This document shows, piece by piece, positions 4,747 to 64,000 of a stretch of 64,000 nt of DNA. The stretch is from Acidimicrobiia bacterium. Lineage in GTDB: Bacteria; Actinomycetota; Acidimicrobiia; Acidimicrobiales; AC-14. A program made the position numbers and the translations under genes. Each line of letters starts with the position of its first letter. Position 1 is the first letter of the stretch. The stretch is from the NCBI GenBank assembly GCA_023264995.1, contig JAHFUR010000010.1, positions 1 to 64,000 of the forward strand. The letters run 5' to 3'. Under the pieces are notes generated by a model. That model made no database searches and was not told where the DNA came from. It was given only the letters and a program-made list of their open reading frames with translations.

Positions 4747-6306
4747 ATGGCCCCCCACCCGAACGGCGTCCGCCTGAAGGACCTCCGCGCCCGCAAGGAC
4801 GAGGCGCTCCACGCCGGCACCGACGACGCCGTCGCCCGCCAGCACGCCCGGGGCAAGATGACGGCTCGGGAACGGGTCGAGGCGCTGCTCGACCCCGGGA
4901 GCTTCGTCGAGCTCGACCTGTTGGCCCGCCACCGGTCGAGCGAGCCCAGCGTGGCCGGCAGCCGGCCGTACACCGACGGCGTGATCACCGGGTGGGGCAC
5001 GGTCGACGGCCGGCAGATCTTCGTGTTCAGCCAGGACTTCACCGTGTTCGGCGGCTCGCTGGGCGAGGTCTTCGCCGAGAAGATCCACAAGGTCATGGAC
5101 ATGGCCGACCAGGTGGGCGCCCCCTTCGTCGGCATCAACGACGGCGCCGGCGCCCGGATCCAGGAGGGCGTCGTGGCCCTCGACTCCTACGGCGGCATCT
5201 TCCGGCGCAACGCTCATTCGTCAGGCGTCATCCCCCAGATCAGCGTGATCATGGGGCCGTGCGCCGGCGGGGCCGTCTACAGCCCGGCCCTCACCGACTT
5301 CGTGTTCATGGTCCGGGACACGTCGTACATGTTCATCACCGGCCCGGAGGTCGTGAAGGCCGAGACCGGGGAGGACGTCTCCCTGCTGGACCTGGGCGGC
5401 GCCATCGCCCACGCCACGCGGTCAGGTGTGGCCCACTTCGTGTCCGACGACGACCGCACCTGTCTCGACGACGTGCGCCGGCTCCTCTCGTTCCTGCCGT
5501 CGAGCAATGCCGAGCCGGCGCCATGGGTGGCGCCGGCCGACGACCCGGCGCGCGAGAGCCCCGAGCTCAACGATGTGCTCCCGGAGCGCACCGACCTGCC
5601 CTACGACATGACCGACGTCATCGCCGCCGTGGTCGACGACGGCTACCTGTTCCAGTACGCGCCACTTTGGGCCCGCAACATGCTGTGCGGCCTGGCTCGC
5701 CTCGACGGCCACGTCGTCGGCATCATCGCCAACCAGCCCGAGGTGCTGGCCGGCGTGCTCGACATCGACTCGTCCGAGAAGGCGGCCAGGTTCGTGCGCA
5801 CCTGCGACGCTTTCAACATCCCCCTGGTGTCCTTCGTCGACGTCCCCGGCTTCCTTCCCGGCGCCGACGAGGAGCACGGGGGGATCGTGCGCCACGGCGC
5901 CAAGCTGCTCTACGCCCTCTGCGAAGCCACCGTCCCCCGGGCCCAGGTGATCACCCGGAAGGCCTACGGCGGGGCCTACGTGGTCATGAACTCGAAGGCC
6001 ATCGGCGCCGACCTGGCCTACGCCTGGCCGACCGCCGAGCTGTCCGTCATGGGGCCGCAAGGGGCGGTTGAGATCCTCCACCGGCGCGAGCTGGCGGAGT
6101 CCGACGACCCTGCGGGCACCAAGGCCGAGCTGCTGGCCGAGTACGTCGAGCGCTACGCCAACCCGTGGATCGCCGCCGAGCGGGGGTACGTCGACGACGT
6201 GATCGAGCCGGCGACCACCCGACCGGTGCTCATCCGGGGCCTGGCCATGCTCCGGTCGAAGCGGGCCGAGCCCCGGTCGCGCAAGCACGGCAATGTCCCC
6301 CTCTAG
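4747..6306 (+). CDS. Acyl-CoA carboxylase carboxyltransferase (beta) subunit
   Basis: A 519-residue protein of the usual length, with both halves of the carboxyltransferase fold. The N-terminal half has GAGARIQEGVVALDSYGGIF and MGPCAGGAVYSPALTDFVFM (oxyanion hole Gly-Gly); the C-terminal half has DVPGFLPGADEEHGGIVRHG and RKAYGGAYVVMNSKAIGAD. It moves the carboxyl group from biotin to an acyl-CoA such as propionyl- or acetyl-CoA. The residue after GGAY, Asp in propionyl-CoA-specific actinobacterial PccB and Ile in AccB, is Val here, so the substrate is left open. No biotin carboxylase/BCCP alpha subunit lies nearby; a small epsilon-like gene overlaps its 3' end. Start ATG 4747 has a TAACCT box 8 nt upstream. 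Confidence 0.9.
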   Translation: MAPHPNGVRLKDLRARKDEALHAGTDDAVARQHARGKMTARERVEALLDPGSFVELDLLARHRSSEPSVAGSRPYTDGVITGWGTVDGRQIFVFSQDFTVFGGSLGEVFAEKIHKVMDMADQVGAPFVGINDGAGARIQEGVVALDSYGGIFRRNAHSSGVIPQISVIMGPCAGGAVYSPALTDFVFMVRDTSYMFITGPEVVKAETGEDVSLLDLGGAIAHATRSGVAHFVSDDDRTCLDDVRRLLSFLPSSNAEPAPWVAPADDPARESPELNDVLPERTDLPYDMTDVIAAVVDDGYLFQYAPLWARNMLCGLARLDGHVVGIIANQPEVLAGVLDIDSSEKAARFVRTCDAFNIPLVSFVDVPGFLPGADEEHGGIVRHGAKLLYALCEATVPRAQVITRKAYGGAYVVMNSKAIGADLAYAWPTAELSVMGPQGAVEILHRRELAESDDPAGTKAELLAEYVERYANPWIAAERGYVDDVIEPATTRPVLIRGLAMLRSKRAEPRSRKHGNVPL

Positions 6307-63111: not shown

Positions 63112-63165
63112 CCCGATCTGGCTGCAGTTACCCGCCAATAGACCGGTAGGTGCAGCCAGATCGGG
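63112..63165. terminator. 15-bp inverted repeat between convergent genes
   Basis: A perfect 15-bp stem (CCCGATCTGGCTGCA 63112-63126, TGCAGCCAGATCGGG 63151-63165) around a 24-nt loop. It fills the gap between the NfeD-type gene and the convergent DsrE gene. No U-tract. Confidence 0.55.
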
Positions 63166-63179
63166 TGGGGGCGGCGCCT

Positions 63180-63536
63180 TCAGCCGATGAAGGGCACGAG
63201 CTGGGCGCCGGCGGCCACTTCGACGAGCATGTCGGTGATCTCCCTGGGCTTGGCGCCCACGTCTGCCATGTCCGAACTGGACACGCCCCGGAAGGCCGCT
63301 CAGCCGGGTGCCACCCAGATGGGCACCTTGGCGTCGAGCACGATCTGGAGGTTGTCGCGGGGCTTGCCCTCGATGCGCTCGCGTACCCGGCGGTGGAGCA
63401 GGCCGGTGGCCGGGCCGGCGAGCACGATCTCGGCCTCGAGCCCGGCCTGGACGGCCCGCCGGGCCAGGCTGAAGGCCCCCCATGCGTCGTCATCGCGGTC
63501 GGGGCCGATCGTCGAATAGAAGATGAGCTTGGCCAT
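63180..63536 (-). CDS. DsrE-family protein with in-frame TGA, candidate selenoprotein
   Basis: Reading through one TGA (63300-63302) gives 118 codons that match a whole DsrE-type protein. Before it: KLIFYSTIGPDRDDDAWGAF, LEAEIVLAGPATGLLHRRV, NLQIVLDAKVPIWVAPG. After it: AAFRGVSSSDMADVGAKPRE then ITDMLVEVAAGAQLVPFIG. In related proteins this position is a Cys in a V-x-x-x-C-A-x-x-R-G context, so residue 79 would be selenocysteine. Of the 39 codons after the TGA, 36 end in G or C. A hairpin of SECIS type follows. Alternatives are a sequencing error of TGC/TGT or a true stop. ATG 63536 begins the frame. Confidence 0.72.
63267..63285 (-). promoter_or_regulatory. SECIS-like hairpin after the in-frame TGA
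   Basis: On the minus strand a 7-bp stem (CGTGTCC/GGACATG, one G-U pair) closes a 5-nt loop AGTTC with G at its second position. The loop begins 21 nt after the TGA, within the range known for bacterial SECIS elements, which lie inside the coding region just behind the UGA. Confidence 0.55.
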
Positions 63537-63678
63537 GGACGGGCCTTCCTTTTCCGCTTCGGACCCACTTCATCGTAGATCGCCGGTGTGTGCGACCAGC
63601 CACTATGTGCAAACGGACCCCTTGTCGAGCCCATCAGGGAGGCATACGGTTATCGGCCGGGGGGAAAGGGGAACGCCG

Positions 63679-63939
63679 TTGAGCAGCCAACGTGTCGAAG
63701 AGCTCTGGCAGCAGCGTGCCGCCTGCAAGGGCCCCCAGTCCGCGGTCTTTTTCCCGCCGTCGCAGGTCGAGCGCAAGGACGAGCGCGAAGCGCGGGAGAA
63801 CCGGGCCAAGGAGATCTGCGCCATGTGCCCGGTCCGCCGGCCCTGCCTCGACTACGCGGTCGCCATCCGGGAGCCGCACGGCATCTGGGGCGGCCTCAAC
63901 GAGCTGGAGCGCAAGCAGCTCATCGCCCGGGCCGGCTAG
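63679..63939 (+). CDS. whiB: WhiB family iron-sulfur transcription regulator
   Basis: An 86-residue protein. The four cluster Cys are in RAACKGPQS and KEICAMCPVRRPCLDYAVAI (C-x2-C-x5-C); the turn GIWGGLNELERK and basic end follow. It binds a 4Fe-4S cluster and acts with the primary sigma factor. The start is placed at TTG 63679, 8 nt after AAAGGGG; the open frame upstream has no WhiB features. Which WhiB class (1-7) it is cannot be settled here. Confidence 0.92.
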   Translation: MSSQRVEELWQQRAACKGPQSAVFFPPSQVERKDEREARENRAKEICAMCPVRRPCLDYAVAIREPHGIWGGLNELERKQLIARAG

Positions 63940-63941
63940 AC

Positions 63942-63963
63942 CGGCGGCAGCCGGGGGCCGCCG
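63942..63963. terminator. GC-rich hairpin after whiB
   Basis: A 7-bp stem CGGCGGC (63942-63948)/GCCGCCG (63957-63963) lies 3 bp past the whiB stop. There is no T-run, so its role as terminator is only likely. Confidence 0.35.
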
Positions 63964-64000
63964 ATCCGGAGGTCCCCCCGCCGGCGGGTCACGCCGGTGG

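Follow-up and report, generated by a model that had tools for sequence, protein, structure and literature searches.

A DsrE-fold protein of Actinomycetota with a predicted selenocysteine at the last place of its active-site motif

The 64,000-nucleotide stretch analysed here (the window; positions 1 to 64,000 of contig JAHFUR010000010.1, assembly GCA_023264995.1, from an Acidimicrobiia bacterium) carries near its end, on the minus strand, a gene that very probably encodes a 118-residue selenoprotein of the DsrE fold (Table 1). Based on several independent lines, UGA at codon 79 of this gene is almost certainly read as selenocysteine (Sec), the residue that the original prediction, made from the letters of the window alone, had placed there. 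Direct reading of the sequence bears out the frame then described, which runs from ATG at 63536 through 78 codons to the inner TGA and on for 39 codons to a second TGA, and other members of the same subgroup end at about the same point with TAG or TGA. Codons ending in G or C make up 73 of 78 upstream of the inner TGA and, as had been counted, 36 of 39 downstream, and the whole translation holds no Cys. Among the homologues the frame likewise goes on beyond the TGA, with no common end at that position. Together with the Sec machinery of the genome, the Cys found at this place in YchN and a hairpin that obeys the known rules, this supports selenocysteine at residue 79.

The protein can be confidently assigned to the DsrE/YchN fold on the strength of a structural model. 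The Pfam domain DsrE (PF02635) matches residues 3-113, across the TGA, at E 1.3e-4 (22.5 bits against a gathering cut-off of 22.7), and all 22 aligned relatives match PF02635 at E<=0.01, the best at 9.6e-12. AlphaFold2, given a 22-row alignment, returned a model with a predicted local distance difference test score of 94.5 and a predicted template modelling score of 0.88, for which the closest solved structures are 3mc3 (Z 15.6), Escherichia coli YchN (1jx7; Z 13.8, root-mean-square deviation 2.3 over 113 residues), DsrE (Z 12.3) and a TusBCD chain (Z 12.1), after which the next drops to 5.2. A single-sequence phmmer search against PDB gave no match, and a profile search gave weak matches to YchN, DsrE and TusD. 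In the model, strand 73-75 is followed by helix 77-82, whose first turn holds Sec79.

The in-frame TGA is not peculiar to this genome. Relatives at E <= 1e-6 were found in 18 of 298 sampled genomes of the order, most with exactly one inner TGA, and a window type was delimited by the motif xPGU-A-x-[FY]-R-G, with seven intact members (the window gene, L011, L012, L013, L014, which equals L044, L045 and L087). All seven have TGA at codon 79 and none has Cys there. Five that were compared share 58-79% identity with the window protein, and the members come from several families and, through L087, from another class, so that two classes of Actinomycetota are represented. Past the TGA, the members conserve the last third of the DsrE domain, with changes mostly at third codon positions. 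L045 holds the frame across the motif and departs from it near residue 107, probably through an assembly frameshift, and L015 is an eighth, frameshifted copy with the same GTGGCGCCGGGCTGA and GTGTCC...GGAC and a TGA at the same motif. The window type forms one tree branch (support 73/89, 75% of bootstrap trees), and a single origin is likely, though not strongly supported by this tree.

The genome, 3.8 Mb in 81 contigs and 98% complete, encodes all the machinery needed to read such a codon. A tRNA-Sec lies on the same contig as the window (66.4 bits; called by ARAGORN as tRNA-SeC with anticodon tca), matches to SelB (269 bits, contig 64587-65648) and SelA (396 bits, contig 65687-66802) follow immediately after the window end, also on the minus strand, and SelD is matched on a different contig (359 bits; L041, G000:C36:4151-5071). 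All four components whose absence from the genome would have told against the original prediction are therefore present. In the SelD gene too a TGA stands within the frame, in HGAG-U-ACK, and is followed by a strong hairpin; the motif fits UxxK, the recorded Sec motif of SelD (PMC13188914), and SelD of this genome is predicted to be a selenoprotein itself. In the order sample, SelB exceeds its curated cut-off in 163 of the 298 genomes, but in 15 of the 16 with a TGA-bearing relative, the source genome among them (hypergeometric P 7e-4), and tRNA-Sec exceeds its gathering score in all eight genome handles tested, one genome being counted twice.

Behind the inner TGA, the hairpin resembling a selenocysteine insertion sequence (SECIS) is present as originally claimed, with 7 bp and loop AGUUC; it occupies nucleotides (nt) 15-33 past the UGA, with the loop beginning after 21 nt. 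It fits the rules published for bacterial SECIS elements (bSECIS), namely a loop of 3-9 nt with G in one of its first two places, a distance of 16-37 nt from the UGA and a minimum free energy of at most -7.5 (PMC13188914), as the original prediction had proposed to check; no Rfam family matches it. Six subgroup members pair in 97.6% of alignment cells. In all seven genes the Ser or Gly codon at +8 has a wobble T, which forms the GU of the loop, against 6.3% T at third positions upstream. By itself the hairpin is a modest signal, only mildly unusual; it is raised far above chance because the TGA and the downstream frame are kept across the subgroup and the loop wobble T is kept in 7/7. Decoding of UGA 79 as Sec by the genome's own SelA, SelB, SelD and tRNA-Sec would be guided by this hairpin.

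Related TGA-bearing genes extend well beyond the window type. A query of GTDB genome contigs with the single protein gave no match, while an alignment query with the family profile gave 37 loci, of which 34 have an inner TGA, two have Cys (L070 and L080) and one is broken (L079); a tblastn search against plasmids found no match. The named sources are Acidimicrobiales/Acidimicrobiia, Pseudonocardiaceae, Solirubrobacteraceae and Rubrobacter, all Actinomycetota, plus one metagenome-assembled genome labelled Rhizobiaceae, whose locus L067 (JAHDEP010000022.1) is an actinobacterial-type Sec-DsrE gene placed there either by horizontal transfer or by a binning error. A large group with the motifs UPGC or UPFS (L016-L030 and L046-L078, for example L072 at 5001-5357) belongs to Actinomycetota, is nearly all Sec, has a covarying SECIS and includes the isolate Pseudonocardia kunmingensis DSM 45301. 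A third TGA-bearing DsrE set, with UKxC or UGxC, occupies a separate part of the tree (L031, L033, L093-L095 and L097).

The position of Sec in the active-site motif sets these groups apart. Counted from the invariant downstream Arg, on which the alignment was anchored, Sec stands at -4 in the window type (A-P-G-U-A-A-F-R-G) and at -7 in the distant group (U-P-G-C-V-D-T-R-G or U-P-F-S-S-D-A-R-G), as it also does in the third group. YchN has Cys at both places and no Sec (CKTC-TDGRG), while DsrE of DsrEFH and TusD of TusBCD, which share the fold and an active-site segment just before R-G, have Cys at -7 only. The earlier proposal that residue 79 aligns with a family Cys preceding A-x-x-R-G thus holds for the second Cys of the YchN CxxC, the Cys of C-x-x-x-R-G in a protein of known structure, but not for the catalytic Cys78 of DsrE and TusD, which lies three residues earlier and corresponds to Ala76 of the window protein.

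The -7 group carries its own hairpin, GACRCC-CGUGG-GGUGUC, differently placed and with a CGUG loop, which begins 18-19 nt past its own UGA. It is paired in 99.1% of cells with double changes at three pairs (13 cells), its covariation score was reached by 0 of 500 shuffles, slid registers paired in only 29-60%, and RNAalifold returned the same helix unaided. The Arg codon at +7 is CGT in 33 of 35 sequences against 11.6% T at third positions upstream, and this wobble T forms the GU of the loop; the counts in both groups are of related sequences and not of independent events. Four sister-group members with Cys at their own Sec position (L024, L029, L032 and L080) all lack this hairpin. Tested sequence by sequence, hairpin energy gives a weak signal in most of the family (median P 0.12), since part of the stem is fixed by the peptide, and the case is therefore carried by covariation and wobble-site conservation.

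DsrE-like selenoproteins as such were first recorded in 2005-2006, in a small number of sequences with UxxC (PMC1088965, PMC1794560), the known members coming from Desulfovibrio vulgaris and the Sargasso Sea (PMC1088965, PMC1794560, PMC13188914), and an inventory of 2026 holds a single DsrE entry, again UxxC (PMC13188914). The original prediction was right that the family had been reported, but the difference in Sec position went unremarked. The window protein shares with the known family (PF02635) the DsrE domain, a single motif Sec, a SECIS just behind the UGA and a Sec-decoding genome. It differs in having Sec fourth, in APGU, with no Cys, where the known members have Sec first, and UxxC is not found in it. 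Since that inventory treats differing Sec positions within one domain as separate subfamilies, the window type would be a new subfamily by its rule (PMC13188914). No record of it was found in the literature searched, where most subscription journals were not covered. Judged by its sequence, the window gene very probably encodes a real selenoprotein, of an apparently undescribed subfamily of the known DsrE-like kind. The UPGC/UPFS proteins are homologous to it, nearly all Sec and served by a SECIS of their own, but form a separate tree branch.

Several observations weigh against the interpretation given here, whether of the codon or of the role of the protein. When the peptide was held fixed and codons were redrawn from the usage of six window genes under the bSECIS constraints, an equal or better permitted hairpin arose in 2.6% of 20,000 sequences (P 0.026), and covariation within the window type, with its few sequences, is weak (101 of 500 shuffles reach the score). 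No Cys version of the window-type subgroup occurs among the relatives found, Cys/Sec pairing being confined to the wider family. No conserved neighbours were seen outside the genus, with coarse calling of open reading frames (ORFs). In addition, Ala76 at the site of DsrE/TusD Cys78 makes transfer chemistry by analogy uncertain.

If TGA were a true stop, as translation table 11 reads it, the gene would be a pseudogene or encode a 78-residue protein with a relic frame behind it, and at the level just given chance could account for the hairpin taken by itself. This is highly improbable, as the same TGA is found in all seven diverged members, which keep the C-terminal third of the domain while changing mostly at third positions, and the frame behind it keeps the G/C-ending codons reported above. 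A TGC or TGT misread as TGA could be suspected in a draft of 81 contigs, but the same TGA in other subgroup assemblies from several families and two classes, along with the retained hairpin and odd wobble T, leaves an error of sequencing or assembly with a negligible probability. Alternatively, UGA could be read as Cys through a mischarged tRNA or be reassigned throughout the organism, an idea to which the Cys of YchN at this motif position lends some appeal; it is nonetheless very unlikely given the complete Sec pathway in the genome and given that TGA also ends genes here in the normal way, the Sec-DsrE gene among them.

The role of the protein is less clear than its decoding. Sec79 would occupy the beginning of the active-site helix, where YchN has the second Cys of its CxxC, and would be the sole chalcogen-nucleophile residue in the protein. 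Perhaps it acts as a one-Sec enzyme, a chalcogen carrier or a reductase, in which the selenolate would take sulfane sulfur, selenium or an oxidised thiol equivalent and hand it to a thiol partner; because there is no internal Cys, Sec would be resolved by the partner or by the thiol pool. DsrE, whose Cys78 carries a persulfide, likewise bears sulfur on one residue (PMC3397948), although both DsrE and TusD act in heterohexamers, a difference from the window protein. By this analogy a chalcogen carrier, rather than a plain redox or selenium-delivery protein, is a tentative assignment whose chance falls slightly short of even. The protein could instead be a selenoprotein that serves as a thiol/peroxide redox enzyme or as a selenium-delivery factor for SelD and takes no part in a sulfur relay, a role with about an even chance of being the true one. 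The gene lies beside selA-selB in its genus, YedF, a SirA-DsrE protein, has been tied to SelD and selenium metabolism (PMC5322559), and a redox function is presumed for most selenoproteins (PMC13188914). On the other hand, adjacency to selAB is seen in only one genus among those sampled, and the protein is without a resolving Cys.

The order selA, selB, whiB (on the opposite strand) and Sec-dsrE is shared by the three genomes sampled from the genus; as neighbours differ elsewhere, the tie to selAB is, within this sampling, confined to the genus. The true start of the WhiB-type ORF is probably downstream of its listed start. The long inverted repeat on the other side of the Sec-DsrE gene is a possible terminator, without a T run, and a promoter scan with a sigma-70 model only found none.

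Table 1. Features at and around the Sec-DsrE gene, in window positions
Feature	Position	Strand	Remarks
Long inverted repeat (CCCGATCTGGCTGCA...TGCAGCCAGATCGGG)	63112..63164	minus	Between convergent Sec-DsrE and NfeD genes; -49.4 kcal/mol for a 75-nt stretch
Sec-DsrE gene	63180..63536	minus	118 codons plus TGA stop; in-frame TGA is predicted U79
Terminating TGA	63180..63182	minus	Sequence read directly; comparison with other members
SECIS-like hairpin CGUGUCC-AGUUC-GGACAUG, 7 bp	63267..63285	minus	Apical loop 63274-63278 with GU; -8.6 kcal/mol
In-frame TGA, codon 79 (predicted Sec), motif APGU-AAFRG	63300..63302	minus	Same alignment column in 7/7 intact subgroup members
WhiB-type regulator ORF	63523..63939	plus	Between selB and the Sec-DsrE gene; PF02467, E 7e-23; WhiB domain residues 62-133
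selB, 3' end	63936..64000	minus	Rest of the gene lies outside the window, up to about contig position 65.65 kb; selA follows

In evolutionary terms, there is about an even chance that Sec, with its SECIS, was shifted from position one to position four of the motif (UPGC to xPGU), or originated anew there, and that the outcome is a chalcogen carrier with one Sec, no resolving Cys and no known Cys version, which in one genus stands with selA-selB and a WhiB regulator. A standard gene finder would end the window protein after 78 residues, and neither the window type nor the wider Sec-DsrE group has an NCBIfam model, so that misannotation of an entire set of actinobacterial selenoproteins is likely. 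Two homologous groups in which Sec stands first or last in a CxxC-like motif, each served by a separate SECIS, offer a clean natural test of how Sec and SECIS move in evolution. They would also allow a test of DsrE-type chalcogen transfer by a lone Sec that has no resolving Cys beside it.
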